This document shows, one piece after another, positions 741-55,232 of a stretch of DNA of 64,000 nucleotides. The notes under the pieces are model-generated. The model had not been told where the DNA came from, made no database searches, and saw nothing but the letters and a program-made list of their open reading frames with translations. The number at the start of each line of letters is the position of its first letter. Position 1 is the first letter of the stretch. The position numbers and the translations under genes are program-made. Source of the stretch: Phoenix dactylifera (Eukaryota; Streptophyta; Magnoliopsida; Arecales; Arecaceae); assembly GCF_009389715.1 (NCBI RefSeq), contig NC_052400.1, positions 1,984,001-2,048,000 of the forward strand, read 5' to 3'.

Positions 741-2132
741 ATGCTTGGATACGAGAACTAAATGCGAAATTGAAGTTAGATATAGATTGAAATAGGACAT
801 AAGTTTGTTGAGTAATTATCCTTGGGTATTGGCAGCAGTTGTTGGCTGAAGATTGAAGATGGTTGCTAAATAAACAAGGATTGATTATTTACATGAATTG
901 CCCATTACCTTTGAATTAAATGGATTGAATAGCAAATTTCCAGTCCAAGTTCATGGGCATGCAACTACTGAACTTAATTGTGATGATATGCAAGAATTTT
1001 TTTTTTTTTTGAGTAATGATATTATTTTGAAACTTGATGCAGATAACTTTTTGTAAAAGTTTTAACTTAAGAAATTATCATATCCTGGAGCATTAAAGTT
1101 TTGTTCCTCAATGACTCCACTTTAATAAAAGTGAGTGTTAGGATTGGTTATGTGGAGATGTTGCGAGATCACTCGGGCTATTCAACATATCCAACAAATG
1201 GAATACATTCTGCTGGCATCTATATAAATTGAATTGAAAGGGTTACATTTTGGTCAGAAAGTTACCCGGCCTTTATTTCCTTGTGCACCTGTTGAAGTGG
1301 ATTTTTGCTTTGTTATTGCTTCGGATGGACTTTCTATAACAACAAATTCTTTCATGAACTAATAATTCAGGAAACCATATACCAAGCTGGCAGGAAACCA
1401 CAAATTAGTAGTCGAGGAAACCACAAATGCTTCCCTCAACTATGTGAGTTTTGCTTCACAGATTTGCATCTCCTACATTACATTTTCCGTCAGCGCATTT
1501 TCTCATGCTGGTGCTTGCAACTTGGATTTCTCATGCTGCGTTTTCTTTCTTTCTTTCTTTCTTTCTTTCTTTTTTTCTTTCTTAATTTCTTTCTTTTGGT
1601 ACACCGGCTCCTCATACCACACGTACAGTCAAGAAATGCCGAATTTTCTATCTTTGATATGCCTGAGGTGCTCCTTGTAATGCATCTTCTATTGGTTGGT
1701 TTTTGTGTTGGTGTTGGGGTTGTGCAGATCTACCATAGTCTACCATTGACTCAAGGCACACTATTAGTTTCAAACATTAAATCTGAATGAGAACATCATG
1801 GCAAACATGCAACTCCAGGTCCCCAGCCAAGACATTCATCATAGATGGCATTAGAAATTTTGTACCTGAGCTACTCATACCAAAGGACAGAAAAAGTAGG
1901 GCATATGAACTAGGAGTCTAAAACTTGTAGACGAGGTTAATTCAAATCCCTCACTATATCATTCATCCATGTGGATTATTCTCACATATTGCATTTTAAT
2001 ATCCTTAAGTAACAACATGGTTTCTTGAAGTTTTGCACTAATAAGCTTTTTCTTTCTTGTTTTTTCTTTGATCCGAAGTCATGTTAATTCATAGTAGCTT
2101 GTGAGCTAGATTTCATTCGGTAGTGATATGGA
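741..2132. other. No gene seen; AT-rich spacer
   Basis: No open frame here resembles a known protein on either strand. The one open frame of note (about 1305-1790, plus) spans a CTTT microsatellite and has no coding character. I see no terminal repeats or target-site duplications. It is probably old repeat-derived sequence. Confidence 0.4.
1541..1597 (+). repeat. (CTTT)n microsatellite
   Basis: About 55 bases of near-perfect CTTT/TTTC repeat, seen directly in the sequence. Such tracts are length-variable. Confidence 0.9.
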
Positions 2133-3317
2133 AATATTGAAGAACTTTTATAAGCAACAACTCACACCTTTAGATTAATTTAGGATGCAAAGTTACTGGG
2201 GGTTGAGATATTAAAAACAAATTGAGTGCTCTTAACTTGTCAATTTCTCATTAAAAATAACTAAAAACAGCTTGCATGCAAATCAAACTTTGAGCCATGT
2301 AACATAGCATGCTATTTCATATTGAGTGTTGGTACGATATGTCAAGTCTGACCTACATGGACACAATTTTCAAATGTCACCTCATCCTGTAGGTTATTTA
2401 CATACAACCTTCTGAAGGGAGATCACTTCTTTGGAAATGGGACTCAATTGTACGTTGTGCAATTTGGAAGAAACATAATGCATGCAACTTCAATAGTAGC
2501 AAGCACCTATTATTGCATTGTTTGGCAAAGTTCTTTGTTCTGCAATATAATTCATTAAGTCTTCAATATATTGAAGCTTCAGAACCTCTATGTAACAAAG
2601 GACTGCTATACGAAACTGAGGAGGTTTTTAATTGCGGATGCCTGATGATTGTAGAGGTAACGGCGAATCTCCCGCTGGTGCTCTGGTGATAATACAGCAT
2701 TTAATGCCCCAGTAACAGATAAAACTATAATCTGCAACCCCATAAATCAAGCACATAAAACAATTGTTATCATACAACAAAAAAGTAGGAATATGATGCC
2801 TTTACGTCCCACCAACTAATTCAGCAAGATGAATGAAATGCATATTCTCATATTTCTTTTTCCTAAGACAAGTTGACAGAAGGGCATCAGCCTGTAACTC
2901 AGGAATAATGCAGAAACAGCATGTTCAAGTTAGAGACAGAAATGATCTAAAAATCTTCATTCTGCAGTATTAAGTATCAATGCTGTCTGTCAACATACAC
3001 CAACTGTACAGTATTACGATTCAATATGTTCCAGATGGGAGGAAATACCAAGCCAGGCATAAGGAACATTGGGCCGCCATGCATAGTCCCCAGGCCAGTG
3101 TCCATCATGTGCTTGGAGAGTAGAATAACAGCTAATAGCCCTTCTTAAAGAGGTCAATACAACTTCTTCTGTAACATCTTCATGGTCTTCTAGCTTGATG
3201 TTGGGGAGGTTTATTTCAAGTGGATTCTCCTTTGCAAACTGCATTAAGAAAGCTAAAAAAGAACAATATCGCTACCTTCAAATAAAGGAGATGATCGGAA
3301 GAGAGGTGTGTGTGTGT

Positions 3318-3357
<40 letters not shown>

Positions 3358-3791
3358 GGGGCGGCAAACTCTGGAGTTCTAGAGTCATTCTTATCTATTC
3401 AAAAGCTGGCAAACTTATCTGCTAATGCAGTATCATTTGGCATTTTTAATTATGGAAGACATCCTAGCAGTTAGAGAGTTTTAGCTACAGAACTAGCATA
3501 TATAGGTGACTTAAAGCGAGAGTTAGCAAATTCTACTATCATAACGAGTCACAGTGTAGCAATTTGTGTAATCATCAGAGCAACATTTTGTATCATCAAT
3601 CCTTAAGTCCCATAGCTACCTCTGACATAATTATTTCAACATCAGTTAAGTATCATAGGAGGGAAAACCCATAAATCTCAAAATAATTTCTAAAGTTTCA
3701 GAAACAACTTAAACCCCAAAATAACTGTGCCAGGCATGCTAGATGCTTTCCTCGCAATGATTTTTAATAGCCTAGACATAAATTATGCAAA
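2133..3791 (-). pseudogene. Truncated cycloartenol synthase pseudogene (intron 6, exons 3 and 2, part of intron 1)
   Basis: This is a near-identical copy of parts of the intact synthase. Positions 2133-2539 match intron 6 (about 36139-36542) and 2537-3791 match 39802-41036. The two halves are fused, so exons 4, 5 and 6 are gone except for a few bases of exon 4. The exon 3 copy (2642-2731) is still open, with one visible Ser-to-Thr change. The exon 2 copy (3049-3238) is 190 nt instead of 186, because four extra bases near 3080 break the frame after HWPGDY. Exon 1 and the start codon are absent: homology stops in intron 1, where gypsy-like sequence begins. It cannot make a functional cyclase. 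Confidence 0.93.
3318..3356 (+). repeat. Poly-G tract (39 G)
   Basis: An uninterrupted run of 39 G follows a short GT repeat. It sits in the pseudogene's intron 1, where the intact gene has only seven G (40572-40578). It is either a real homopolymer expansion or an assembly artefact. Confidence 0.85.
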
Positions 3792-6123
3792 ATAATCAAG
3801 ATACGCAGAACCGACCGAACCGATGTATCGGTGGGGACTGGTACCGGTTGGAACAAGTACCGAACCGGCCAACCAAAAAAAAAAAAACAATCCGCGACAC
3901 GCGCACGGACACGTTTTAGCCACAGAGTGGCATTTCTGTAACATTAAATGCCCATGCGGCTCGCGCTCGTGCGCGGTGCTGCGTGGGCTCGCTGCCCCGC
4001 GCGGTTCCTTGCGTGTGGAATCGTGCGGAGGCCGCGCGTGGGCAAGCTGCCCCGCGCGCGGACGCCCTTTTTTTCTTTCCTTTTTTTTTCTTTCCCTTCT
4101 TCTTCCTCCTTCCCGAACTCTCTTCCTCTCCTTTCTTCCCCTCTCTCCTCCTCTCTTCTCCTCTCTTTCACCCCTTCTCCCGCGAGCAAAGAAGGGGCCG
4201 GAACCGCGATGCTTAAGTCAGAGGGGCTTTTGTGGAGAAAGAGAGAGATTGTATGTAGAAATCAAAAATCAAAAGTCCCTCCCTCTAAGAATAGGGAGTC
4301 TCCTTTTTATAGGAGGGGTTCGTGATTACCTGTGATGTAACTATGCGAATTAATAAGTTACCGTCATAATTGGGCGTGATCGTGTGAATTAATGAGTTGT
4401 TGTGGATGATTGAACGTGATTGAGTCAGTCAATGAGTTGCCGTGGATGGCTTGAGATTTCGGGCTGGCTGGAGGTCCGTGGAGATTGTGCACATTTAATT
4501 GTTGACAGTCGCTCAAGCGGAGATTGCGGGATTGGATCCCGGATGAGGAGGAGAGGGGCTTGATTTCCGGTGGAGTGGAGAAGTCTGCTTCGTCCTTTGA
4601 CCGGATCTTCTTTGGACTTGAGGTCGATCGGGTTCGGCTTGGCCGAGATCAAGGCCGCGAGCTCTGAGGTCGGGCATGCTGAGGTCGGGCGCCTTCAGGT
4701 TGGGCCCCCTGAGGTCGGGCGTCTTGAGGGTTGCTGTCGTTGCGCTCGTCGTCACGTGCTGGTGTATCCACGTGTTTTGGGCAATCCATTTTCCCCCCAA
4801 CACTACCCCCGACTTCCGAGTTCGAGCCGCTTACGAGCTCGGGCGAAGGAAGTAATCGTCTTTATCATGCTGGTGGGGCCGTTCCGCGCGCTTCGAGGCA
4901 TTTTTAATGAGAGGCGACGCCCTTTTGCCTTTCGAGGCAGTTTCGAGCCGCGGGCTCATGATAAGGCTCCGGGATCCGACAAGACGCCGTTTCGATTCTG
5001 CTTTTAAAGCGTCGATCCAAGTTAATACGCCGCTTAGGTTTTCGGGGCCGACATGTGGCACGATCTAGACGGAAGGCGGGATCTGGCTCTGTTGATCTGG
5101 GCCGTAAGGGGGTCTATATAAACCCCGGCCTGACCCTAAAAGTTCTCATTTGGCCGCTGCAGCCGTTGCCTTCTTCTTCTTCCATTTTCTTTCCCTTTTT
5201 CTTCCAGTCGTTGCTCAGTTTTTTTCCGGCGGTGCCCCAAGGCGTTTTCTGATGATTGTCTTGATCCCTCACCTTTGGTCGGCGGCATTTCCAGTGAAAC
5301 CCACAGTAGGTCTCTCACCCTCGTTTACTCGGAGGCTTTTGGTCTTTCTGTTTCTTTCTTTCCTTCCTCCTTCTTTGTCTTCCTCTATTTGGTGAGCACA
5401 GCAATGCCAAGCGGTGCCTCGTCCTCCGGTAGGGACCTATCTTGCAGGAGGGAGGTCGCGTCGGAGACGGATCATGGCCCAGACGGAGTTGGGTCCAGCT
5501 TGACCGAGGAGTTGGAGTTGATCCGCGCCCGGTTTTTCCCTCAGCGCGGGTTTTGCCTTGAGCCCGCGAGGCCGGAAGACCGGGTGACGAGACCTCCTCC
5601 AGGTCGGATCGGGGTGTACATAGAGACACTTTGGGCCGGCCTGCGATTTTTCCTACACGGGTTCGTGAACGAGCTCCTGGCGGCGTATCAGCTCGTCCCA
5701 GTACAGCTCGCTCCGAACTCGTGGAGGACCATCATTGGTTTTTTATCCCTTTGCCTCGCACACGGGATACCGGCCTCGGTGAACGTCTTTCGTGGGTGCT
5801 TCATGTTGAAGTCCAACCCGGCGGACGGGGAATGGCTCTACCTCGCCCTTCGAGGCGGTAGGGCCGTTCTTCCGAGGTGCTCCTTCCTCCATTCATGGGT
5901 GAAAGGAGAAATTTTTCTTCCTCTCCTCTGAGTGCACGTGGGAATTTGACCCGAGGTGGGGGCAGCCCCGGTTCAAGGCCATCAACAAGCCCCCCAAGCT
6001 TTCGGTGAGTGAGCAGAAGATTTTCGACGCTCTCCGCAGCCTCGAGGGAGATATTCTTCTGAGCGACCTCCTGAGCGAGGAGGCTCTGGTGAATGTCGGC
6101 CTAAGCTCGACGCGTCCCCAGGG
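3792..6123 (+). mobile_element. Gypsy-like retroelement fragment
   Basis: This block interrupts the duplicated sequence: homology to the intact locus stops at 3791 (41036) and resumes at 6124 (about 43100). It contains GC-rich LTR-like sequence with repeats of 'gaggtcgggc' near 4665-4725, a 'tctatataaacccc' TATA-like signal near 5113, and an open frame of a gypsy-type plant transposon family (5404-5931). I could not define matching LTRs or a target-site duplication, so the element ends are approximate. Confidence 0.6.
5404..5931 (+). pseudogene. Gypsy-type transposon ORF (Transposase_28-like), frameshifted
   Basis: From the ATG at 5404 the frame reads through residues such as GRIGVYIETLWAGLRF and FLSLCLAHGIPASVNVFRG. 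This resembles the 'putative gypsy type transposon' domain (Pfam PF04195, recalled from knowledge) that is common in plant retroelements. The frame ends at 5931, but a related frame continues to about 6122 (reading CTWEFDPRWGQPRFK and DALRSLEGDILL). That indicates a one-base frameshift near 5910. No reverse transcriptase is seen. Confidence 0.6.
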
Positions 6124-6477
6124 TAATGATTGGATAACATAATATGGCTATAATGTTTACCATATCCCATCAATATAAATATGTATCCTATTACCTCTAG
6201 TGCAACAATTTTTATACTTGTTATACTTACATTGCATAATACCAAGATTTACTAAGTATCTAAAAATAATTGATACATGACAGAAAATAATATAATATAT
6301 ACTAAATGATTTATTATATTGTTAATTATTGTATGCATGTTATAATATCATAATATGTACTAAATAATAATTATCATAATATTTTACTAATGAATTATAT
6401 TAAACCTATTGTACTTTGATATATTAAAACGTAAGTCCACGATGTTAGGCCATGGAACTTCCGGTGTTCATATAATT
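6124..6477. repeat. Duplicated AT-rich intergenic piece
   Basis: Positions 6124-6432 align with about 43100-43410, sharing long phrases such as 'aaataattgatacatgaca' and 'aatattttactaat'. Positions 6441-6477 match about 44699-44735 ('acttccggtg.tcatat'). In the intact copy these pieces are 1.3 kb apart, so sequence was lost between them here, or gained there. This is part of the same tandem duplication as the two pseudogenes. Confidence 0.7.
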
Positions 6478-6482
6478 GTTGC

Positions 6483-7409
6483 TGATGGGGGGCACAATGG
6501 ATCGTCCAGCCCACAACAAAAGGGCCACCCAATTTCGGCCCAATAGACACCAACATCGACCAGACATATTCTCGGTCCGGTCCAAAATCAGCTCGACCTT
6601 GGACTCCACCGAAAACTCCTTCAACCTCAGATATTCGCCGACTCGTCCGACCAAGTTCAGGGCACCTTCTGTATTTACCGACTAGCACCGATCGAGCTCG
6701 GAGCGCCCTCTCTAGTAATAGCGCCGACCCTTGAGCTCGGGGCGCTCCACTGAGCACACCTCGGAACCCAAAATGCTAGGCTGGCCTCAGCACCCGTCTA
6801 GCCGACCTGGCCAAATGCCTGATGCGATCTTTTGACGAGCTCGGCCTCGCCAATGGCGTCGCACCCTTGTGCATGCCTACACCCTCCTACATGATCGTAC
6901 ATTGCGATGCCATCACACCATGCTACTCCAGCCATACCCTGCCACGATTGTCAACGCCTTACTATTCCCAAAGACGAACTCCACCGCGCGCCACAAACAT
7001 GCCCTGGCTGCGCGCCACTCCCACTCATGATGGAAATAGGCCATACCCTGCCACGGCTGTCAACGCCTTACCGTTTTCAAGAACGGACTTCACCACGGGC
7101 CACAATCAAGTTCTGGCTGCGCGCCACTCCTACTCATGATAGGAACATGCCATATCACCGTCACCTAAGTGCTCATATCAGAACTATAAAGAACCCCAAC
7201 GGGTAACGCCTAAGGGACTTTTAGCTACACCAAACAAAATTCCACTCTAACTTGATCGTCGGAGGGCCCTCACCGGAATACCGGTGAGGCTTTGTGCAGG
7301 TACATTGCCGTCCTCAGGAGGTGGCTCATTTTCTCTTTCTCCACACTCCGGCAGCTCCCTCGACTTCCCTCCAGCATGGTCACCCTCGAGCCAGATTTGA
7401 ACCACAATA
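6483..7409 (+). mobile_element. Solo LTR with 5-bp target duplication
   Basis: The element starts TGATGGGG and ends CACAATA, and is flanked by GTTGC at 6478-6482 and 7410-7414. The intact locus (about 44735) has the uninterrupted phrase 'attgttgctataaaaaa', which serves as the empty site. A TATA-like 'actataaagaac' lies near 7183. No internal retroelement genes are present. The 3' end is not a canonical CA, so the last bases may have mutated. Insertion happened after the segmental duplication. Confidence 0.75.
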
Positions 7410-7414
7410 GTTGC

Positions 7415-7947
7415 TATAAAAAAAAATAAATTCAAGTCCTTGAATTTTGGAGGAACTTTCGAGTCATCAAAGTGCAGTTAGATGGTGAAATGCCTATTGA
7501 ATCGCATAGAACGCATCAGAATCTAGTCATATGATTCATGTAAAACATAGCCGCAACGGGTGCGATCCTTTCCCACTCCTTTATAACAGCTTCACAAGAC
7601 GGATTACATGCACCGTCTCCAGTGTATCACTATCTCCTTCGACTTCCTCCAACATCCGTCCTTGCCGCCCATTTATTACTAAATACCGCTTCGCTACGTG
7701 CATTAGAGAGAGTTGGAAACCCCACAAACAAGACATTTTAGTATTATTTTTTGGGCTTATTATGGATATTCCACCCGGCAGCTCCAGGACGGAAGCAAGA
7801 AACGGTTCGGACCAAGCCACCGCGCAAGCCAACTCCTCCTCCGTCGCCGTGCCTTTACTACTAAACCATGCATACGCCCGCACCAAATCCATCGTACACG
7901 CCCTACAGAAAAAGTACACAATGCCAATATATACATACCAGCGCTAG
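7415..7947 (+). pseudogene. Truncated DUF3537 (GRL-like) pseudogene, 5' end only
   Basis: Positions 7415 to about 7895 are a close copy of 44740-45195, covering the TATA region, leader and the first 46 or so codons of the intact DUF3537 gene. The start (7762) gives MDIPPGSSRTEARNG, against MDIPPGSSRMDARNG in the intact gene, and the match runs to TKSIVH. After that the sequence is unrelated and the frame stops at 7947. All membrane segments are missing, so no functional product is possible. Confidence 0.92.
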
Positions 7948-7974
7948 ATAGAAGTGTCGGTAATTTTGGCTCCG

Positions 7975-8225
7975 ACGCTTTTAAATAGTGTTGATAGGCA
8001 TGAAAATACGATGATGCTAACTAGCATCATAAAAAACACGACGCTTACTAGCATCGTCGGAGGTCGCAAAAGCCAGAACCTAGAACGACGCTTACAAGCG
8101 TCGTCGGAGTCTCCTAAGATGATGCTTACAAGCGTCGTCAGAGGCCTAGAACTAAGACAATGCTTATAAACGTCGTCGGAAGCCTAGAACTAAGACGACG
8201 CTCATAAGCATCGTCGGAGACCAAC
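7975..8225. repeat. Array of palindromic GACGACGCTT..AAGCGTCGTC motifs
   Basis: At least five imperfect copies of a short palindrome ('gacgcttacaagcgtcgtc' and variants) occur about 40-50 bases apart, separated by a repeated 'gcctagaactaagac' spacer. Dense short inverted motifs like this are typical of subterminal regions of plant CACTA or Mutator DNA transposons. The array abuts the point where the DUF3537 copy is cut off. I found no CACTA terminus or target duplication, so the class is inferred. Confidence 0.55.
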
Positions 8226-8284
8226 ACCCCCTAAAATAAAACTCCAGCGTCCAACCGACCATCCCTCATTTCCCATCAGCCCTA

Positions 8285-8550
8285 GCCCTCTTTTCCTCCG
8301 CCCGAAGTATCTTTCTCCTTCTCCTTCCTCTCCGGCATCGACCGACCAACCCCAACCCCCGATCGACCTCCACCTTCGCCCGAAGTATCTTTCTCCGTCT
8401 CCCTCCTCTTCAGTACCGACCGACCGACCGCAACTCCCAATCGAGCTCCGCCTCCGCTCGAGGTATCTATCTCCTTCTCTCTCCTCTTCGACGCCGACCG
8501 ATCCCAATCTCCCAATCCAGCTCCACTTCCGCCCGTTTTAGGTATCTTGC
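8285..8550. repeat. About 78-bp tandem repeat, roughly 3.5 copies
   Basis: The phrase 'cgcccgaagtatctttctcc' recurs at about 8299 and 8376, and in diverged form at about 8454 and 8531. Between occurrences lie related 'accgaccgacc' and 'cccaatc' segments. The array follows the palindrome array and is probably part of the same transposon. Confidence 0.7.
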
Positions 8551-9049
8551 CCTCCCTCCCTCTCATGTGCCCCTCCTCGTTAATCATTAGTATGCTTTAG
8601 ATTCAATTTACAATTTTTCTTTTTTTCCTTTTAGAGGCCTTAAACCTTAATGTGATTATATTTCTAAGAATCCAAAATCATTATATCATTTAATTCGTTT
8701 TCACTTTTGTCGAGGAAGTTAGACTGTGTGTTAGTTAATTTTTCGAAATAAAACCTCTAAAAGTCCAAAAACAAAAAACAAAAGATTGTAATTTTGATGG
8801 TTCTTATGCATCATCCATTTAGTTGATGTTGGCCTCCAATTGACTTGCTATAATTGACCTTCTTTGTTTTATAACGACACTTTGATGGTTCTTATAGTTT
8901 TAGGAAGCAGATCCAAGATGAGATGAAGATTATAGTTGCTACCATGTGCTCATGCACCATAAAACCAATCTAAAGTTTCACATTTCATAGAAAAGAATAT
9001 TATAATGTACCATAATCTGCTGATGTGCTTCATTTCTTTGATTGCAAAC

Positions 9050-9770
9050 TTCGCCTTTGACCATACTAATTCTTTCATGACAATAAGCAAAAAAGAACAA
9101 AAAGAAAGCCTCTCAAATCCACAAATAAGAGAGCCTATCAATCTGCCGCTACTTACAATAACAAAATGGAGAAGAAAAGTGCATGCTTTCATTGTAGAAA
9201 ACCTGGACATCACAAGGTAGAATGTCATCTTAACAGAAAGACGGGTGCCCCAGTAGCCAAAAAAAACTCTGTTGCAATAATAAAAGACATTGATGATCTT
9301 AAAGATGATGGAGCTTGGTAGACTCACTCTGGTGCAACCAAACACACGCAAGGACAAAAATCTATTCAAAAAGTATGAACCACTAGAAGATGAAACTATT
9401 CTTTATATGGAAAACTAGTCCATTACACAAGTCAATAGAAAAGAAACCATAGAACTTAAATTGGCTTTTGAAAAAAAAATACTTGCTCTTAATGATGTAT
9501 ATTATGTACCAAAATTTAGGAAAACTCTTATGTCTGGTAATCTTCTTAATAACTTTGGCTTCAAATTAGTATTTGAGGCAGATAAATTTATTCTATGCAA
9601 GGGTGAAATCTCTATTGGGAAAGACCATTTATGAGGGCATGTTCAAGCCTAATATTAACAACTTTCTTGTGCTTATATTGTTAAATCTTCTTATTCGTGA
9701 CATCAAAAATTTGATCAAATTGTGCTTGCTAATAGCTATAAAATAAATAAATCTGATAAATATGTAATAT
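9050..9770 (+). mobile_element. Copia gag-protease remnant
   Basis: A broken plus-strand frame shows a CCHC zinc knuckle (CFHCRKPGHHKVEC, from about 9184). It is followed by a protease-like DGAW*THSGATKH around 9308-9340 with an in-frame stop, and then by LNDVYYVPKFRKTLMS and LLNNFGFKLVFEADKF from about 9490. This is the usual order in Ty1/copia polyproteins upstream of integrase. Stops and frame changes mark it as dead. No LTRs are recognised around it. Confidence 0.72.
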
Positions 9771-10348
9771 AGAAAATTTAATAATAGAAAAATGCTATTA
9801 CTCGTTTGGCAAATGATATGCTAATTTTTAGTACCAATTTAAAAACTCAGCCATGGTTTACAAGCTAGAAACTCACCCATGGTTTACAATCTGAGCAGGC
9901 CCTTGCACACATTCAAGATCACTGAAAACTAGGTTTAAATATAGAGCACATTGTTTACATTACTTCCCGTTTTTTAACACACAATTAACAGGTTGAGAAA
10001 GCATGAGCAACCTTTCCACTACAAGAATCATATGCATTTATCAGTCAACAAAATATAAAAAATAAGAAAAAATAAATACGTAATATTTGATTGTCCGATG
10101 CTGTCGCAATAGGAAACATAGCTTGGTGCAATAGTAAAATGCTTGGGCTGACCGGCACAATCATATAGATTAAGTCTTTCATCAGTCACTTTATGCAAAC
10201 AAAAGGCCAAAGATTAGTCTAACAGTCACGCAAGACATTCTTCTATGACCGGTAAAGCAGTAAGATCTGCATTTCTGAATACTTTGATTGAGGGAAAAAA
10301 CATCAACATTCTGACCAAGGATTGCAATATGGCAGAAGAGATTAGCAT
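9771..10348. other. Region downstream of CAS, 3' UTR expected
   Basis: On the minus strand this lies directly 3' of the CAS stop codon, so it should hold the 3' UTR and polyadenylation site. I could not place the cleavage site with confidence. A CACTACAAGAA string at 10017 resembles a CACTA transposon tip, but no partner end was found. Confidence 0.35.
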
Positions 10349-37300: not shown

Positions 37301-40300
37301 GTATTATGTTGTAAAAGAAATAGTGTCTGATCTCCATACATCAAAGGTTCATTTATCCCATGATGACAAGCTAGGCAAAGGTAATTGAGTAATATATACC
37401 CATACAGAAAAGGAAAAAAAAAAGATCATTGCAGCACGCATGTTTCCGAAAAAGAAAACAAGAGATCAATGCAGCATGCATGTTTCCAAATCCAAACACA
37501 GCTCTTCTTAATTTTTTTCAAAATTTCCTTATATATCCCCGTCTGTTTTTTCAAGTAGACTTTCTAAATGCTTCATAATTTTCTTAATTTTCCACTGGAA
37601 CATATTGAAATAGATGGAAGAGAAATGCCCACAAACAAACATGTAACTGCCAAATTTTTGAAAATTTTACCTTCACATATACAATTAAATTACTTGAGTA
37701 TATTCAGAATTCTACAAGGCACGGCCTACACATAAGAAATCTAACTTCACAAGGAAAACATGTTATTAAACACATATCTTACCGACCTTTGCACACTCAT
37801 TTCGAGCCCGATTCCAATCTATTTGCTGATAGGGACAAGCATATAGCTCCTTCCTCAGTGATAAAACTGTAGGTGTAATTGGACCCACAAACCTCTTTCC
37901 ATATATATAGGACATGGGCAAATAAACCATCCGGCAGTGACACCACATTCGTCCTGTGAAGCAAGAGAAGTTAACATGGCAAAACTTGAAGAATTCAAAA
38001 ATTAAACAAGTCAGCATTAGATATTGCACTAAGGAATGGTCCCAATGCAAGGATAACAGTAAAATTTTTGGACAGATATAACAAGCGGCATGCCTTCCAT
38101 TATGAATACTCTTGCCTGCATTATCTAAGGTAGCAGACCTCATTTTTTGTATTAATCAGGAAAGAGAACACTATGAATGCAAACTCAATTCAACTCAACC
38201 AAGCCTTAACCCCAAACTAGTTGGGATCGGCTACATGAATCTTTATCCTCCATTCCGCTCTTTTTGAGGCCACACTTTCTGAAAGATGTAGGGATATCAA
38301 GTCAGCATTCTTTACTATGAATGCAAAGGAAAGGAAAACAAATTTACTGATTTTTTGTTAAAAAAAGAATGATATGTCTATCAATTTCTTCAAGTACAGA
38401 TATTAAATGATATATATTGGATCAAAGAAGAGTTACGAAGAATGGAAAATTCATTAAAGGTTGATAAAATTATAGAATAATTGTCATATATCTTCATATA
38501 TAAAAATTAATTACATGTTCCTGGTTTCTATATTTACTCAAGTGAATTCTTTTTAATTTACTTGATCTTTTGGACAAGATATCAGCTATCACACCAACCA
38601 CTTTGTTAGATCTATGGCCAGTGGCCTATGGAACATACTTAAGAAAAAGTTCGTTCTGATCTATAAGCTATCAGAACAAACAGAAGATATATGTAGACAA
38701 AAGAGCAAAGGAACATGTTGTAAATATCAACACCTTTGGTCCTCAATTTTTATGAAGGAATATTTGTAAACTCGATAATTAATAAGCTGCCTCACAAACA
38801 TTGAAACAAAATGCATGATCTTAAGCAAGGTCCGCCGTACCGGTATCGGTCGGCGTACCGGTGGCGGCCCAGACCGGTCCGTACCGGTGGCGTACCGGTC
38901 CGAACCGGTCCCGTACCGGTTCAGTACCGGTTCTTCAACAATAAACTACCGGTACCGGATTTCACGCTGATCCGGTACCGGTCCCAGGCCGGACCGGTAC
39001 GTACCGGCTGGTACGGACCGGTACGGCGGACCATGATCTTAAGATTTCCGGCTGTAAAAGATGACATAGTATCATACCAACCTTCATTGTGCACAAAGGA
39101 AATAAACTTGTGAATCTAATTACACTACACTGAGACAGTGAACACTTGAAGAGGTGCCCATTCTCTCTGGGAGTGCATAAGAACTCTTAAAATATTACTA
39201 CATTGGTGAGCAATGGCTTCAACACCCAAATCTGGCTTCTCTTGTTGATAAAAAGAAGCCAAGATGTACTACTTATTTTGCATTCCTATACATATAATAC
39301 TAATCTAATACTAATCGAAATTGTCACCAATAACCCCTTCCGGGAGAAATAAAAAAGACAAAAAAAAAAAAAAAATACTAACAACAGATTGGGGGGGGGG
39401 GGGGGGGGGGGGGGGAATTAGAGAGAGAGTACCCGGATGAACAGGCAGAACATATGGGAGTAACCACATCTCTGGGGGTAGTGGGTTGTTGCCAGACCAT
39501 TCAAACACTCCAAGTACCTGCAATTATATCAGCACAAGGACATCAAAAATTGCTCCTTACAACTGAAACCACAAGCTTTGTCAATTAGATGGATGAAAGG
39601 ATCAGATTTATTACAGAGAGCCAAAATTTTCCCCATGATGTTATGGCCGTCGCACCACCATGGTCTAGAATCCAAGTTCGTGCTTTTTGCATTGCACCGT
39701 CTCCATCATCAGGTCCTTCACCCAGCAACCTCAACGTAACATATGTCAAGGCCGAACCAAACATGGTGCTGTGGCCTTCTATATGCAAACCCCAGCCACC
39801 ATCTTTGTTCTGCAATATAATTCATTAAGTCTTCAATATATTGAAGCTTCAGAACCTCTATGTAACAAAGAACTGCTATACGAAACTGAGGAGGTTTTTA
39901 ATTGTGGATGCCTGATGATTGTAGAGGTAACGGCGAATCTCCCGCTGGTGCTCCGGTGATAAAACAGCATTTAATGCCCCAGAAACAGATAAAACTATAA
40001 TCTGCACCACAATAAATCAAACACATAAAACAATTGTTATCATACAACAAAAAAGAGGAATATGATGCCTTTACGCCCCACCAACTAATTCAGCAAGATG
40101 AATGAAATGCATATTCTCATATTTCTTTTTCCTAAGACAAGTTGACAGAAGGGCATCAGCCTGTAACTTAGGAATAATGCAGAAACAGCATGTTCAAGTT
40201 AGAGACAGAAATGATCCAAAAATCTTCATTGTGCAGTATAAAGTATCAATGCTGCCTATCAACATACACCAACTGTACAGTATTACGATTGAATATGTTC

Positions 40301-41577
40301 CAGATGGGAGCAAATACCAAGCCAGGCATAAGGAACATTGGGCCGCCATAGTCCCCAGGCCAGTGTCCATCATGGGCTTGGAGAGTAGAATAACAGCTAA
40401 TAGCCCTTCTTAAAGAGGTCAATACAACTTCTTCTGTAACATCTTCATGGTCTTCTAGCTTGATGTTGGGGAGGTTTATTTCAAGTGGATTCTCCTTTGC
40501 AAACTGCATTAAGAAAGTTAAAAAAGAACAATATCAATACCTTCAAATAAAGGAGATGATTGGAAGAGAGGTGGGGGGGCATTTTCCATCAGAACACACT
40601 TTGCTGTCCAAACTCAGGAGTTCCAGAGTCATTCTTATCTATTCAAAAGCTGGCAAACTTATATGCTAATGCAGTATGATTTGGCATTTTTAATTATGGA
40701 AGACATCCTAGCAGTTAGAGAGTTTTAGCTGCAGAACTAGCATATATAGATGACTTGAAGCGAGTATTAACAAATTCTACTATCATAACGAGTCACAGTG
40801 TAGCAATTTGTGTAATCATCAGAGCAATATTGCGTATCATCAATCCTTAAGTCCCAAAGCTATCTCTGACATAATTATTTCAACATCAGTTAAGTATCAT
40901 AGTAGGGAAAAACCCATAAATCTCAAAATAATTTCTAAAGTTTCAGAAACAACTTGAATCCCAAAATAACTGTACTGGGCATCCTAGATGCTTTCCTCGC
41001 AATGATTTTTAATGGCCTAGACATAAATTATGCAAGACGACCAAATCCAGTCATGTAATTACAAGCGTCAGCTTACATGACCAAATAATTTTCAACCTTC
41101 AAACGTATATGTAGGTCTTCTCGTTCCATTATTTCTTAGTCTTGCATATTCTTCCATGAATTATAACGAGCTTGTGAGGGATATTCTCAAGCCATTCATT
41201 GATGAATTCTAAATTCACAAATATTGAATAAGAAAAACCGCATATTTGGATCTTTTAACTACTTCTGTCAACAATCATAGACAACCAGCACATATTTTTA
41301 CCTGCCCCAGTAAAATAAACATTAAAAAAAAAAGAAGAAAAATAATAGTAACAAACGGGACTTCTTTCTGTTATTATACCTGCAATCGCATGAGGAGATC
41401 AGCACTGTGCTTCATCTCAAAACGATGCTCCCGAAACAGCTCACGGGCCTTCTCGACTGCAGCAATCTCCTCAGCCGTGCCTATATTCGGATCAAATTCC
41501 CACAGCTGCCTCCCTGCATGGTTGTTTGTCGTCTTCAGCCACGGGCTGCCGCCCTGCGCAATCTTAAGCCTCCACAT
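10349..41577 (-). CDS. CAS1: Cycloartenol synthase, complete, 18 coding exons
   Basis: The enzyme cyclises 2,3-oxidosqualene to cycloartenol, the first committed step of plant sterol synthesis, at the ER membrane. Exons in transcript order: 41577-41380, 40503-40318, 40001-39912, 39809-39615, 39517-39433, 37953-37787, 35998-35810, 28289-28176, 28029-27907, 27813-27691, 27626-27528, 26581-26525, 22394-22348, 22253-22110, 21925-21748, 18719-18639, 11194-11111, 10468-10349. They total 2280 nt and encode 759 residues in one open frame. Visible motifs are GHWPGDYGG (112-120), MWCHCR (254-259) and the catalytic DCTAE (Asp483). Tyr410, His477 and Ile481, which specify cycloartenol in Arabidopsis CAS1, are all present, favouring CAS over lanosterol or amyrin synthases. 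All junctions are GT-AG except intron 3, which begins GC. A QW-motif glutamine is Met523 here. The start [10 protein letters not shown] matches the family start. Introns 7, 12, 15 and 16 are 3-7.5 kb and repeat-filled. Confidence 0.96.
11800..11960 (+). mobile_element. Possible tRNA-derived SINE in CAS intron 16
   Basis: The stretch contains 'gctcagctcgttgg', resembling an RNA polymerase III A box, and 'gggttcaaacc', resembling a B box, about 35 bases apart. That spacing suits a tRNA-like SINE head. No clear tail or target duplication was found, so this is weak. Confidence 0.3.
12075..14147 (+). mobile_element. 2.07-kb solo LTR in CAS intron 16
   Basis: The element begins TGTGAGTATT and ends GGCATGACA (TG...CA) and is flanked by the 5-bp direct repeat ACATG at 12070-12074 and 14148-14152. 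Inside are a GA microsatellite (12410-12432), a long purine-rich stretch (12690-12905), repeated 'gggcccaacttgggc' phrases and a 43-bp tandem repeat. No polyprotein remains, so this looks like an LTR-LTR recombination product. The closing sequence resembles gypsy LTR ends. A diverged intron copy near 16190-16210 has the same site without the insertion. Confidence 0.8.
13493..13640 (+). repeat. 43-bp tandem repeat in the solo LTR
   Basis: Three successive units share 'gacaccgttgccaccggtg' (first copy 'gacaccattgccaccggtg'), each followed by 'attagaatagt' or a close variant. Seen directly. Confidence 0.85.
14296..15562 (+). mobile_element. Harbinger-like non-autonomous element carrying a PPR gene fragment
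   Basis: Left end GGCCCTATATGGGGGAGCTT and right end AACAGCTCTCCCAAACAGGACC are inverted repeats of each other. Both ends closely match the second copy at 25109-26189. The flanks are TTA (left) and TTT (right), close to the TWA target typical of PIF/Harbinger; the second copy has a perfect TAA pair. The outer parts of the two copies are homologous, including AT-rich sequence at 15020-15560, but the middle differs. Here the middle holds a GC-rich coding-like stretch (see 14596-14870). No transposase is encoded. It lies in CAS intron 16. Confidence 0.78.
14596..14870 (+). pseudogene. Captured PPR-protein fragment inside the Harbinger-like element
   Basis: The frame reads [20 protein letters not shown] then [18 protein letters not shown]. 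After one extra C in the C-run near 14705 it continues as [20 protein letters not shown] and [11 protein letters not shown]. This is the pattern of plant PLS-class pentatricopeptide repeat proteins (ALxLF...D.xSFAPLLKAxS...G..VHAL.L..GF). The frameshift and the short length make it non-functional. It is absent from the sister element at 25109. Confidence 0.65.
15584..15769. mobile_element. hAT-like MITE, GTACCG-rich, copy A
   Basis: The 186-bp element begins CAAGGTTCACAGTACCG and ends CCGAAATGATGTACCTTG, an imperfect terminal inverted repeat. It is flanked by the 8-bp direct repeat CTCAAGAT (15576-15583 and 15770-15777). Its interior is dense in GGTACCG-type motifs. The 8-bp target duplication and CAAGG tips fit the hAT superfamily. 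It inserted 21 bp beyond the Harbinger-like element. Confidence 0.85.
16488..17082. mobile_element. 595-bp hAT-like element with internal hairpins
   Basis: The ends CATGGTCGGCAGAACC and GGCACAGCAGACCGTG are imperfect inverted repeats, and the flanks are the perfect 8-bp repeat ATTTGGAG (16480-16487 and 17083-17090). The interior contains a GA-rich tract, repeated 'gccgacttcacttaa' phrases in both orientations, and 'gtaccag'/'gtactga' motifs. No transposase is present. It lies in CAS intron 16 and is probably related to the shorter GTACCG-rich hAT elements in the window. Confidence 0.8.
16816..16856. repeat. Perfect 19-bp inverted repeat with 3-nt loop
   Basis: Arms 16816-16834 and 16838-16856 (TTTAAGTGAAGTCGGCAAA and its reverse complement) flank CGA. 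Further partial copies of the same motif lie at about 16741-16778 and 16860-16880. In RNA this would form a stable hairpin. Confidence 0.9.
17850..18115. repeat. Degenerate GTACC-rich repeat in CAS intron 16
   Basis: Phrases such as 'ggtacaggtattgtaccag' and 'acggtatggcactgatggt' resemble the interior of the GTACCG-rich hAT MITEs in this window. I found no clean tips or 8-bp duplication, so this is probably an old decayed member. Confidence 0.4.
18729..20638. repeat. Tandem duplication of about 0.95 kb in CAS intron 15
   Basis: Unit 1 (18729-19680, 952 bp) and unit 2 (19681-20638, 958 bp) are near-identical over their whole length. Each starts 'agaaaaaagtt(g/a)ag' and ends 'cacatttaac'. Small differences are scattered, for example an extra 'aggtagacatgcaaact' phrase near 19936. 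The breakpoint is about 10 bp from the exon 16 acceptor, so the pyrimidine tract and likely branch-point region are duplicated but the acceptor AG is not. Confidence 0.93.
20639..21747. other. Rest of CAS intron 15, no gene seen
   Basis: Unique-looking AT-rich intron sequence between the tandem duplication and exon 15. No coding frame, terminal repeats or tandem arrays recognised. Confidence 0.5.
22395..25105. other. CAS intron 12, AT-rich, no gene seen
   Basis: The part of intron 12 on the exon 13 side. The section 23690-24640 is very AT-rich with many 'attaataata' phrases and may be an old transposon, but I could not find ends or a coding remnant. Confidence 0.45.
25109..26189 (+). mobile_element. 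Harbinger-like non-autonomous element, second copy
   Basis: The ends GGCCCTGTTTGGGAGAGCTT and AACAGCTCCCCCAAACAGGGCC are inverted repeats, flanked by TAA at 25106-25108 and 26190-26192. The TAA duplication fits the TWA rule of PIF/Harbinger elements. Termini and AT-rich interior match the copy at 14296-15562. The middle here is CT-rich low-complexity sequence plus a short GC-rich piece, with no PPR fragment. No transposase is encoded. Intron 12 of CAS. Confidence 0.83.
28290..29840. other. CAS intron 7, part without recognised features
   Basis: Intron sequence between exon 8 and the LTR element. No coding similarity on either strand. Open frames at 29030-29352 are short and lack any family signature. 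Confidence 0.45.
30187..30316 (+). promoter_or_regulatory. Four palindromic CACGTG-type repeats upstream of an LTR TATA box
   Basis: Four units of about 32 bp carry a palindrome. Two (30248-30269 and 30280-30301) are the perfect 22-bp TTACTGTTCACGTGAACAGTAA; the others are near-perfect. The centre CACGTG is the G-box core. TATAAAAA follows at 30308-30315. This arrangement looks like the retroelement's promoter. The 3' LTR has the same array, but its CACGTG centres are mostly mutated. Confidence 0.8.
30832..30843 (+). other. LTR element primer-binding site
   Basis: TGGTATCAGAGC, complementary to the 3' end of plant initiator tRNA-Met, three bases after the 5' LTR. Confidence 0.85.
31143..31723 (+). 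pseudogene. Copia RT end and RNase H fragment
   Basis: Reads as the end of a Ty1/copia polyprotein: [19 protein letters not shown], then [52 protein letters not shown] and the closing [17 protein letters not shown]. These are RNase H landmarks of the family. Two in-frame TGA stops interrupt it (near 31223 and 31575), both explicable by single-base changes. The fragment runs directly into a purine-rich tract and an LTR, as at the 3' end of a SIRE/Maximus-type element. Confidence 0.85.
31738..34111 (+). mobile_element. SIRE-like copia LTR, nested
   Basis: It begins TGAAAGAGTAGATGCCC directly after the polypurine AGTGGGAGA and ends CTGGGAAACCCAACA, giving a 2.37-kb LTR typical in size and edges of SIRE/Maximus copia elements. 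A TATA-like 'cttataaataagg' is near 33617. No primer-binding site follows the right end and no matching second LTR exists. Only a 3' part of the donor element is therefore present, carried inside the outer retroelement. Confidence 0.68.
33105..33470 (+). repeat. About 62-bp tandem repeat array in the SIRE-like LTR
   Basis: Repeated phrases 'tctggaccattggatgg', 'tggatgaaggatctgg' and 'ggcgccttcatctggacc' recur roughly every 62 bases over five to six diverged units, upstream of the TATA-like box. Confidence 0.85.
35383..35557. mobile_element. hAT-like MITE, GTACCG-rich, copy B
   Basis: The 175-bp element begins CAAGATTCGTCGTACCG and ends CGAGACGACGGAACCTTG, with terminal inverted repeats. It is flanked by the 8-bp repeat CTCATGAT at 35375-35382 and 35558-35565. 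It has the same internal character as the copies at 15584, 38826 and 60702. CAS intron 7. Confidence 0.87.
36598..36830 (+). mobile_element. Possible SINE in CAS intron 6
   Basis: 'gagccttagtttgggtggc' (A-box-like) and 'gcagggttcaattctga' (B-box-like) are spaced as in tRNA-derived SINEs, and an A-rich stretch 'aaaaaagaaattt' follows near 36808. No target duplication was confirmed. Confidence 0.3.
38185..38280. repeat. Dispersed plant repeat motif in CAS intron 5
   Basis: The phrase 'ctagttgggatcggctacat' and its surroundings resemble a short repeat seen widely in plant genomes, from memory, possibly SINE-derived. Only one copy occurs in this window, so the call rests on recognition alone. 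Confidence 0.35.
38826..39035. mobile_element. hAT-like MITE, GTACCG-rich, copy C
   Basis: The 210-bp element begins CAAGGTCCGCCGTACCGG and ends CGGTACGGCGGACCATG, with almost perfect inverted termini. It is flanked by the 8-bp repeat ATCTTAAG at 38818-38825 and 39036-39043 (11 bp, ATGATCTTAAG, if the last three element bases are counted as flank). The interior is a dense run of 'accggtccgtaccggt'-type motifs. CAS intron 5. Confidence 0.9.
39391..39415 (+). repeat. Poly-G tract (25 G) next to CAS exon 5
   Basis: An uninterrupted run of 25 G, read as poly-C in the CAS transcript. It starts 17 bp inside intron 5 after a CT repeat. Either a true homopolymer or a collapsed/expanded assembly artefact. 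Confidence 0.88.
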
Positions 41578-41950
41578 TGCCGGATCAGGAGGAAGAACTG
41601 CGGGAATCCATCCATTCAAACAATCAAAACAAAATCCGATGAGAAAAAAGGTTCAATATTAGGGCAAAAACCATATATAAATCCATCGCGCTTCAAGAAA
41701 GAAAAGGAACAAGTAAAATCCTTTCAAGAAACAAGTAAAATCAAGAAATAGAGAGAGCGGGGACCAAGTAAAAATTTCCTGTCCGATTTCAATGGGCAAA
41801 TCAAGGAGAAGATATGCGCGAACACAGTACCACCTTCAAGATCGAGATATTTTGATGGTGATGAGATGGAAAGATTGGAAAACAGAGGAGTGCAGATTAG
41901 GGTTCTTCCGTTCTTGAAGGTATCTTGGAAGCTCTCTCTGGCCCACGGAG
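41578..41950 (-). promoter_or_regulatory. CAS 5' leader with probable UTR intron
   Basis: Twenty bases upstream of the start, 'cccgcag' at 41604-41598 is a good acceptor. Further upstream, 'cttgaag/gtggta' at 41834/41833 could be the donor. Together they predict a 236-bp intron in the 5' UTR, with a non-coding exon above 41833. I could not place the transcription start or a TATA box with confidence. Confidence 0.45.
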
Positions 41951-44900
41951 GTGGCGGTGGCGTGGGAGCTTCCTTCAGTCTTCTCCTCCCATCTCTGTTA
42001 CCGTTCTTGAATGCATCTTGAAAGCGAAGTCATCCAAGGGGAGACTGAAGAGCGAAGTCGGGTGGGAGGAAACATCGGCCTGCGCCCAGGATTGTTTTAT
42101 CTCGCATCCGGGCGGTCCAACTGAAATCGGGCGGTTTGAGGGACATCGCCCGCAGGTGGACTCCCCGCACCCTCGCCGCACTCATCGGATTCCTTCCACG
42201 TGATCCTGTCCCTATCACGTGGACAGCATGGGCCAACGCAATCGAGCATAGAGATGAGCGAAAATAAATGAAGTGTATCGAATAAATTGATAGACGTGAT
42301 ATTACATCCAATGAAAAGGTAAGAAAATTGCGATGCACGACAGCACAAGCATCAAAGTTCGTACCTAATATTACATCGGAGAAAGCTGACAAGTCGGCCT
42401 GTAGCTCTATCATCTTTTAAAGGAACGTCTTACCTACTCGATGGGCACCAAGTACCAATTAAATACTCAGGATGGCACGACCACAATTCCTTTTAATTAA
42501 TTTTACAGCACGGGCGGGCACCGGCTGCCTATTTAATCGTACCTTATATTAAATGAACGATTCTTCTCCTAAACAAATATTGCTCGTCTCTATTTTTTTT
42601 AATTAAATTTAAAAAATAATTAAATTAAAAATATGTGTATTTTAATTATTTTTATTTTCAGCCTCTTATTTATATTTTTTTCTCGTTGATGAAGACTAAA
42701 ATAGGACGGATATATGTTGTCTATCCACTTCTCCATCTTTAAATTTATAAAATATCATCTAAATTATATTTTTTTGATTTATTTGTCCATCATCGATTCT
42801 TTAGTGGTCTTTCTTTTTGTACCTGGTTCTTTGATTCATCATTATTTACAGCTACTGCATTATTTTATTTTTTGATTTGATGCATGGTTATTTTTTCATT
42901 GCTAGTTTTGTCTTATTAAAATTCATTTTATGGTTTAAGAACTGTAATGCATACTTTAGTTATATTTCAATAATATTATCTTTCTATTAGATAAGTTATC
43001 CAATATAAAGATGAGATCTATGGTGAATAATTATAAGTATATAGAACGACAAATATTTTGAATATTTGTAAAGAATATTTTATATAATATACAACATGAT
43101 AGATGAATGATTGAATAATATAGCTATTATGTTTACTATATCAATCAATATAAATATGTATGTTATTACTTTTAGTGCAACAATTTTTATATTTATTATA
43201 TTTACATTGCATAATGCCAAATTTTACTAATTATCTAAAAATAATTGATACATGACAAGAAATAATATAACATATACTAAATGATTTGTTATATTATTAA
43301 TTATCATATACATGCTATAATATCATAATATGTACTAAATAATAATTATCATAATATTTTACTAATAAATTATATTAAACAAAATATACTTTGATATATT
43401 AAAACATCTATTGTAATATAAAACTGCATAACGTAGCATGTGGTATAGAAATTTAACTAAGGCATCCAAGAAAAAAAATTGTTTAAAATGCATTTTACAT
43501 AGTCTGAAAATTATATTATTATCATCTTATCTCGAAATAAAGGGTATGATATACCACAAAAAATATCATGGAGTGTCCTACGTAGCTTTTCCTTCCAAGT
43601 CCACACAGTGCTGCCAGAATGGCAAGCCACATAAGAAGCCATACAGTCTACAACTCCGTTGGCCTTTCTAAATATATATCTGATCGGAAAAGCCACCTCA
43701 TCTCTGCCCATCGTCCAAATATCTCTAGTCAAGGGGTAGTCCTCCATACCGCTCAGGCCACTCTTGATCCATCCGATCACTATGTCCGGGTCACCCTTCA
43801 GTATGATCAAACTAACCTGCAGGATACACCTTGTGATTCCAGTCCCGAGCACCCCTGTCGGAGAGGGCGGAGTGCCAAAACTGCCACCACCCGAGCATAA
43901 ATTGGCATAAATTTTTCTTTCAGTGGACATAAATTGCCATGAATAACTTCGGTTGGGCGAACGGCTTCGACTTTGATGGAAAAGTCATTAGTTATGAAAA
44001 CAATTAGTACGCATCGACGAAAGGTGGACAACTGTAACAATGAACAACTCTAATCAGTTCATAATTATGATAGCCCTATGTTCCTAACTGTATTTGCACC
44101 GCGCTCTGTCCACATGAATTGACTCTCATGCTGAGGACGTACTCAAATAGTTTTTTCATAAGAAAAGTCATAAGTCAATAATTATTAATATTAATTGTAG
44201 GGAATCATCCATCTATAAACTTAGAAATTTTACACGCATGAAATTTTTTGATGCGAAACAGCTGTAGCTGCATGAAAGCTAGAAGATAGCAGTGTAGCAT
44301 GTGACCACGGCTGGAAAGGCAAACCAGAATCCCGTGAATGCGTGGTGGGAATCCGGACGAGCCAAAAATGAGTTAGTTGGAACACGGCCGGAAAGAAGAG
44401 AGGCGACCTGCAGCCGGTCTTTTCCCTTCCACTTCACAGCCACTGGCAGTCGAGCTCACGAGAGGAAGCCAAGGCATTGCCCTTTTGACCGCCTCTTCAC
44501 GATGCATGCCCCTTCGGCCACGATTAATTAATTTGTCGATTTGAAGAAATGGCTCGTCATCGGCTCCTTTAATCTCTCTCTTTCCGTCTTCACAACTTGT
44601 TAAATAATAGGAAGGAGATATTGCAGGGAATGATGTATGATGCGAAATACAAATAATTTGTTTCTGATGGTGCAATCAGGTCCACATGAGTCCACAATCT
44701 TCGGCCATGCGACTTCCGGTGATCATATATAATTGTTGCTATAAAAAAAAAAAAAAAAAATCAAGTTCTTGAATAATTTTGGATGGTGAAATGCCTATTG
44801 AATCAAAAAGAACAGAACGCATCAGAATCTAGTCATACGATTCATGTAAGCTAGTGGGCCGCAACGGGTGTGATCCTTTCCCAGTCCTTTATAACGGCTT

Positions 44901-45058
44901 CACAGGGCGGATTCCATGCACTGCGCCTCCAGTGTATCTCCATCTCCAACATCCGTCCTTGCCACCCATATATTACCAAATACCACTTCGCTACGTGCAT
45001 TAGAGAAAGTCGGAAACCCCACAAAGAAGACATTTTGTTATTATTTTTTGGGCTTATT
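41951..45058. other. Intergenic region between divergent CAS and DUF3537 genes
   Basis: This holds the promoters of both genes. About 42420-43410 and 44699-45058 are duplicated in the 1-7900 region. The part 42580-43420 is AT-rich. A LINE fragment lies at 43550-43835. On the plus strand, 'ctttataacggc' at about 44887 is a TATA-like box for the DUF3537 gene and is conserved in its pseudogene copy. Nothing else coding was recognised. Confidence 0.55.
43550..43835 (-). mobile_element. LINE RNase H-like fragment
   Basis: The minus-strand frame reads LIILKGDPDIVIGWIKSG followed by FPIRYIFRKANGVVDCMASY and VACHSGS. This is the layout of the RNase H-like domain at the end of plant LINE polyproteins (EGDS..VI..W, then IR.IFREANG.AD..AS..A.HSG). 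Part of the intact intergenic region; related to the scrap at 296-430. Confidence 0.6.
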
Positions 45059-46691
45059 ATGGATATTCCTCCCGGCAGCTCCAGGATGGATGCAAGAAAC
45101 GGTTCAGATCTGGCCGCCGCGGAAGTCAACTCCTCCTCCGTCGCCGTGCCTTTGCTACTGAACCCTGCATACGCCCGCACCAAGTCCATCGTGCACGACG
45201 AGCTCCGCAACTTCCGCATCTGCCTGAAATGGTGCGCCCTCGACCACTCCTCTACCGGCGGCAGGGCCGCCTCCTACGCCGTCTTCGTGGCCCTCGCCGT
45301 CGTCCTTCCCGCCGCCACCTCCCTCTCCGTCCGTCCCCCTTCCTCTGCCGCCGCGTTCCACTTCAACCAGCTGGTCCAGCTCCCGGAGTCGGGCCTCGCC
45401 GCCATCTCCTTCCTGACCCTCGCCGCCTTCTTCCGCCGGCACGGCCTCCGGCAGCTCCTCTTCCTGGACGGCGCCCTCCGCGACGATTCCGCCTTCGTCC
45501 GCCGCGGCTACCACCGGGAGCTGGACCGCGCCTTCCGCCGCCTCGCCGCCATCCTCCTGCCTTCCTTCTCCGTGGAGCTCGCCCACAAGATCCTCTTCTT
45601 CTCCTCCGTCTCCGTGTCTGCCCGGCTCCCTTTCCGCGGGCCCGTCCCCTGGAACTCGGTGGCCTTCGTGGCCACACTGGCGTCCTGGGTGTACCGCACG
45701 GGGGTGTTCCTGCTCGTCTGCGTGCTCTTCCGCCTCACCTGCGAGCTCCAGATCCTCCGCTTCGAGGGCCTGTACAAGATGTTCGAAGACGACGAGGAGG
45801 AGAGAGCTGGTCGGAGGAGTGGTAACGCCTGGGCCATATTCAGGGAGCACCTGAGGATAAAGAGGCAGCTGCTGGCGATCAGCCACAGGTACCGCATCTT
45901 CATCATCGGCTGCATGGTCATCATCTCGGTCAGCCAGCTGGGGGCTCTCATGCTCGTCTTGGCTTCCAAATTCCAGAAGAACTTCTGCAACTCGGGTGAC
46001 CTCCTGGTATTATATAAGATTTATTTACCTATATATAATATATGCATGCCATCAAACAGATCACGTAGCTTCGCTAGCTAGAACAACAAGGAGCTGGTAG
46101 GAAAACTAATATCCAAAACCAATTCTACGTACGATATATTATTCCTTGCTCTCCTTATAAATTACAGGTTTGTTCGGCGGTTCAGATCAGTGGCTACTTC
46201 ATGTGCTTGATGGGAGCCGCCAGTATCACGCACAGAGCTCAGAGGGCCGTCTCGGTGGCCAGCCGATGGCACGCGGTCATGTCATGCGCTCCCCGCCGCA
46301 CGTCGGATGCATCGCAGCTGCAGAAGCAAACACGAGCACTGCCCATAAATGAGCTCCATGCATCAGATCGTGACTATGAATGCAACCTATCGAAAGAACC
46401 CATCATGTATTCTTCCTCCCATCAAGATACTTCTTCCGAAAGCCGGCAAGCTTTGGGTGAGAACGGAGCACTCCGAGAACTGCATAATAAATTACACATA
46501 ACAGCAATATTTGATCGACTAATGATTTGAGCTAATGGTTTTGAATGCATGCAGTGACGTACTTGCAGCATAACGGTGGCGGCATCACGTTGTTTGGTTT
46601 CCCGCTGGACCGAGGATTGCTTCACACACTCTTTGCCTTTGAAATGACGCTGGTCTTGTGGATCCTAAGCAAAGTAGTTGTGCTTTCCTGA
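45059..46691 (+). CDS. DUF3537 membrane protein, gustatory-receptor-like (GRL) family
   Basis: Three exons (45059-46006, 46168-46456, 46555-46691) encode 457 residues. The family is plant-wide and has been proposed to be distantly related to insect gustatory receptors; its ligand and function are unknown. About seven hydrophobic segments are visible: residues 70-90, 108-125, 161-185, 200-227, 278-303, 317-336 and 433-457. An acidic DDEEE cytosolic-type loop lies near 244-248. The C-terminal VTYLQHNGGGITLFGFPLD is a family hallmark. I chose the ATG at 45059 (MDIPPGSS) because the in-frame ATG at 44870 lies upstream of the TATA-like box. Exon 1 is very GC-rich. The gene is divergent from CAS, and its 5' end is duplicated as a pseudogene at 7762. 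Confidence 0.9.
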
Positions 46692-48527: not shown

Positions 48528-48559
<32 letters not shown>

Positions 48560-55187: not shown

Positions 55188-55232
55188 TTTTTCCCAGGTT
55201 ATACCCAATGTTCTGATGGAAGCTTTTTCTCT

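Follow-up and report, generated by a model that had tools for sequence, protein, structure and literature searches.

Local duplication of oxidosqualene cyclase (OSC) genes has been described in Rosa rugosa, where OSC duplicates are both tandem and proximal and one OSC, which is very short, was regarded as a possible pseudogene (PMC9698161). In maize, the p1/p2 array comprises eleven nearly perfect 12-kb repeats and is associated with end-joining and transposition (PMC2686159). The locus reported here lies in a window of 64,000 nucleotides (the whole stretch of DNA that was analyzed) from a flowering plant, probably a monocot, and contains an intact OSC gene, an intact gene for a DUF3537 membrane protein and, to their left, a broken copy of parts of both. 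The locus has local OSC duplication in common with Rosa rugosa, but its copy consists of a decayed 5′ part of the OSC together with the first codons of a divergent neighbor. With maize p1/p2 it would share local duplication in a head-to-tail arrangement, the involvement of transposition and end-joining, and the occurrence of chimeric genes where the array ends, whereas in place of eleven repeats there is a single old, decayed copy and another that is uncertain. A local duplication that then decays is an ordinary outcome and a known kind of event. A literature search found no paper that describes the locus by its title or the start of its abstract; it was run without the organism name, so we do not claim that the locus is unpublished.

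Comparison of the window with itself, supplemented by a sensitive comparison of 1–10349 with the rest, gave six plus/plus matches in a single order between 2133–7903 on the left and 36140–45200 on the right (OSC intron 6 to DUF3537 codon 46), with identities of ~82–96% and offsets of 34.0 to 38.3 kb. Positions 2133–2534, part of OSC intron 6, match 36140–36542 (91.4%), and 2532–3799 match 39802–41044 (92.0% over 1269 columns, with two cores of 96.4% and 94.4%). Two intergenic pieces, 6126–6430 and 6429–6483, correspond to 43103–43405 (88.5%) and 44684–44740 (82.5%), and the order is continued by 7406–7445 with 44731–44774 (81.8%) and 7478–7900 with 44779–45197 (85.4%). As a control, 1–10349 was compared with the reversed window under identical sensitive settings (E up to 1), which yielded eight chance matches, the best of them AT-rich with 59.7 bits (E 7e-10). 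The four main pieces score 332 to 1509 bits, far above this control; the two smallest (52.5 and 39.7 bits) are inside the chance range by score and were accepted because of their collinear position only. The initial annotation had reported that pieces of 36139–45195 recur at 2133–7895 in the same order and orientation. The self-comparison and the reversed control confirm this, and its coordinates for the pieces are off by no more than about 12 bases. The homology is collinear, in one orientation, and includes introns and intergenic DNA, as in a local segmental duplication. The right border near 7903/45200 is sharp, and the left border at 2133/36140 may be a secondary break. Two other candidate matches were discarded: 6204–6438 with 25759–26010 (66%), whose score is reached by 3 of 300 shuffles and whose AT-rich stretch also matches the reversed window, and 1541–1597 with 12840–12782, which is a pyrimidine-rich tract (41.1 bits, the best reversed match having 34.0). 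Neither ARAGORN nor Rfam at gathering thresholds gave any match.

The right-hand OSC gene, cycloartenol synthase-like, was modeled exon by exon from the window, with stretches of plant OSCs used to find some of the exons. It occupies 10349–41577 on the minus strand and has 18 exons, 2280 coding bases and 759 residues; all 17 introns have AG acceptors, 16 have GT donors and one (intron 3) has a GC donor, and there are no internal stops. Both the SQHop_cyclase_N and SQHop_cyclase_C domains (PF13249, PF13243) are matched far above the cut-off, and the best PDB relative of the protein is 8j5z_A. The protein also contains the DCTAE motif, which we take to be typical of cycloartenol synthase. Tyr410, His477 and Ile481, described as key residues of Arabidopsis CAS1, lie in two regions that are both found in the right OSC (PMC7060231). 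Since the three residues occupy identical numbers in the two proteins, the best prediction is that the right OSC is a cycloartenol synthase. Its exon number falls within the 18–20 given for the OSCs of Rosa rugosa (PMC9698161), while introns long enough to stretch the gene over about 31 kb, and a single GC–AG intron, set it apart from the known cycloartenol synthase group. The initial annotation had placed the end of this gene near 36139; in the splice model it runs on to 10349, and the intact gene, whose ~31-kb length was missed, occupies most of the interval between the copies. Because the OSC extends to 10349, the left copy (2133–7903) sits just past its 3′ end. Several repeats were observed within its introns. 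Intron 15 contains a tandem duplication (18723–20643, about 950 bases, 91.7%) that begins beside the acceptor of exon 16 (18639–18719), intron 7 contains two copies of an ~1-kb repeat (29843–30826 and 34252–35262, 87.7%), one with an array of 32-base units (30188–30302), and a two-part repeat pair (14286–15563 and 25099–26190; 80% and 89%) is located in introns 16 and 12.

The intact DUF3537 gene is located at 45059–46691 on the plus strand and has three exons and 457 residues in a splice model supported by Pfam PF12056 on exons 1 and 2 (1.4e-87 for the exon 1 ORF and 8.8e-20 for the exon 2 ORF); exon 3 was located with a motif. The two genes diverge head to head from start codons that lie 3.5 kb apart, and both are uninterrupted in the 18-exon and 3-exon models, in agreement with the earlier description of the right-hand pair as intact. 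The PF12056 match is shared with the plant DUF3537 family, whose members have been proposed to be related to insect gustatory-receptor-like proteins (PMC7746228).

The left copy is dead and consists of pseudogene pieces. Its OSC remnant (2532–3799, exons on the minus strand) comprises exons 2 and 3, introns 2 and 3, part of intron 1 and, on the exon 4 side, the last 5–6 bases; exon 2 is frameshifted by a 4-base insertion, exons 1, 5 and 6 are missing, and exon 4 is missing almost entirely. At 2532–2534 the left copy lacks 3,262 bases of the right copy, with exons 5 and 6 and almost the whole of exon 4 among them, and the flanks are joined at three shared bases. Introns 2 and 3 are retained whole and introns 1 and 6 in part, which, together with the frameshift, is the pattern of an unprocessed pseudogene; a processed (retro-) pseudogene was rejected because introns are present. 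Downstream on the plus strand, unrelated sequence at 3800–6125 replaces 41045–43102 (OSC exon 1 and its upstream region) and includes a gypsy-type gag-like ORF at 5140–5928 (Transposase_28, PF04195, 2.2e-13). The 1,278 bases at 43406–44683 have no left counterpart between the pieces at 6126–6430 and 6429–6483, which could reflect a gain or a loss. An LTR-like insert at 6483–7409 is flanked by 5-base target repeats (6478–6482 and 7410–7414), and the site is unoccupied in the right copy; a short target duplication and an empty site in the other copy are the marks of a solo LTR. The last part, 7406–7903 on the plus strand, corresponds to ~44731–45200 and contains sequence upstream of DUF3537 followed by its first 46 codons, which start at 7762; the homology stops sharply at codon 46. 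With the exon 1 probe, no DUF3537 residues beyond 46 were found in 1–10348 at E below 1, and the whole OSC protein as probe likewise detected no OSC exons 7–18 in that interval at E below 1. For annotation, OSC and DUF3537 matches at 2–8 kb are a hazard: they come from pseudogene pieces, and the 31-kb gene between the copies is the real OSC.

Divergence between the copies is uneven. Differences per aligned site are 15/418 in introns 2 and 3, 32/516 in intron 1, 30/399 in intron 6, and 30/300 and 27/310 in intergenic pieces A and C (p = 0.008 for heterogeneity, with 3.6% in introns 2 and 3 and 9–10% between the genes). Pooled introns (77/1333) also differ from the two intergenic pieces (57/610; p = 0.005; the 50-base intergenic piece, 6/50, and the DUF3537 codons, 17/142, were omitted). 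Because of this unevenness, conversion or more than one event may have been involved. Exons 2 and 3 of the left OSC carry 4 differences in 276 sites, compared with 47/934 in introns 1–3 (Fisher p = 0.006, post hoc), and the difference is not significant against introns 2 and 3 alone (p = 0.10). Three of the four changes are synonymous and one is non-synonymous; for a left copy unconstrained from birth, 5.4 non-synonymous changes would be expected at the rate of introns 1–3 (p = 0.03, post hoc) and 3.9 at the 3.6% rate of introns 2 and 3 (p = 0.10), at which the deficit is not significant. These divergence and codon tests were picked after the data had been seen and are suggestive only. As exons 2 and 3 differ less than introns 1–3 and few changes are non-synonymous, the comparison weakly suggests that the left OSC functioned for some time. 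The first 45 codons of the DUF3537 copy, with eight synonymous and seven non-synonymous changes, are compatible with an unconstrained left copy. With plant substitution rates between about 2.6 and 6.5 per billion sites annually, K80 distances of about 0.04–0.11 in the longer pieces would date the duplication, very roughly, to 3 to 21 million years ago.

The best explanation, to which we assign a probability of roughly 60%, is that a unit of ~37 kb (7904–45200) was duplicated in tandem and that its left copy then decayed. The unit would begin near 7904, shortly beyond the OSC 3′ end, and finish near 45200 at DUF3537 codon 46, and unequal exchange or end-joining would have duplicated it, leaving on the left a second OSC copy, presumably complete at that time, and an already truncated DUF3537 copy. 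The spare OSC would then have decayed as a short insertion shifted its frame, 3.3 kb was deleted with joining at 3 bases of microhomology, and a gypsy element took the place of exon 1 and the upstream region next to it. The LTR-like insertion would have added to the decay of the left copy, and all of these lesions are presumably later than the duplication. This model is favored by the collinear pieces in one orientation with their introns kept, by the uninterrupted OSC and DUF3537 genes on the right and by lesions that can be read directly. It is also favored by the end point of the left homology, which lies 2.4 kb short of the OSC stop at the place where the tandem junction would fall and where the left unit is predicted to end with the DUF3537 gene cut, as observed at codon 46, with no remainder after it. 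The constraint tests on exons 2 and 3 weakly suggest that the left OSC once worked, as the model would have it. On the other side, the left OSC would continue leftwards beyond 2133, and no OSC exons 7–18 were found in the 2.1 kb of the window on that side, which counts against the model. The proposed start of the unit is the repeat-rich spacer at 7904–10348, between the left copy and the OSC stop, which has no match above the reversed control to 10349–45200 or 45200–52000. The break at 7903 could instead result from a later insertion or deletion, because repeat-rich sequence adjoins it. In this spacer, arrays of 38-base and 78-base repeats were observed at 8004–8227 and 8295–8535.

The missing exons 7–18 and the sharpness of both borders of the left copy, with no further DUF3537 remnant beside them, would also fit a partial segmental copy, in which a copy of only ~9 kb, reaching from OSC intron 6 to DUF3537 codon 46, was placed 2.4 kb beyond the OSC 3′ end and neither left gene was ever complete. 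We consider this rather unlikely, since exons 2 and 3 look constrained relative to introns 1–3, which is unexpected of a copy dead at birth, although that test is weak and post hoc. The initial annotation had proposed that the complete OSC–DUF3537 pair was duplicated and that the left copy later lost both genes through deletion and insertions. The deletions and insertions are real, but prior completeness of both genes is improbable, as no DUF3537 sequence past codon 46 is present anywhere in 7904–10348. The sharp stop at codon 46 and the absence of a remainder in the next 2.4 kb instead indicate that the DUF3537 copy may have been cut short by the duplication breakpoint when it arose, and in the ~37-kb tandem model it would never have been complete. 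Capture of the gene pieces by a DNA transposon is very hard to credit, for although repeat arrays adjoin the right border, there are no paired CACTA-type ends (a single CACTACAAGAA at 10017 has no inverted partner in the window), and collinear pieces over 9 kb including introns are large for such capture. An assembly artefact, with a second haplotype or a misjoined contig placed in tandem, could be suspected from the 39-base G run in the left copy, an error-prone place for assemblies, but is highly implausible given copies that differ by 4–10% with unlike insertions and deletions and a window composed of A, C, G and T only, with no N gap. In biological terms the locus is an ordinary case of duplicate decay through microhomology deletion and transposon insertion next to a sterol-synthesis gene.

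The left end of the window, 1–741, contains on the plus strand a diverged and partly out-of-order relative of the intergenic sequence at 42425–43046. Three stretches match it at 65%, 76.5% and 86%, the last being out of order, with scores of 62, 82 and 59, while 300 shuffles of each reached at most 23, 21 and 14, so the out-of-order intergenic similarity noted earlier at 1–740 exceeds every shuffle for each stretch. In a tblastx comparison, 43616–43714 matched 339–437 over 33 residues. The surrounding 43514–43984 contains no Pfam family at E up to 0.1, and we take it to be RNase-H-like. The interposed ~229–445, with its RNase-H-like similarity to 43616–43714, would fit a retroelement that inserted later. 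In 1–2132, neither OSC nor DUF3537 exon 1 gave a match at E below 1. Positions 1–741 could belong to a repeat family, derive from a third unit or be a piece displaced from the left copy. A displaced piece is conceivable because the matched right part falls in the stretch that is absent from the left copy, and the greater divergence of 1–741 argues against it. A more far-reaching, unlikely reading is that the locus forms the edge of an older leftward OSC array, with 1–741 as an older third unit and the spare OSC selected for a time as a second sterol or triterpene cyclase.

Several other features of the window were observed. The GC donor of OSC intron 3 (39908–39911) is common to the intact and decayed copies. 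Long G runs are found at 3318–3356 (39 bases), where the right counterpart is a short G run, and at 39391–39415 (25 bases). Motifs of the GGTACCGG-like type cluster at 3840, 15746, 35438–35535, 38837–39018 and 60713–60870, with a single match at 45888, and the clusters perhaps belong to one dispersed repeat family. Downstream of the DUF3537 gene, an ORF at 49821–50498 has a SecE match (E 0.0036, below the curated cut-off), and ORFs at 51024–55232 form a glycosyltransferase family 28 C-terminal gene, which we presume to resemble ALG13.
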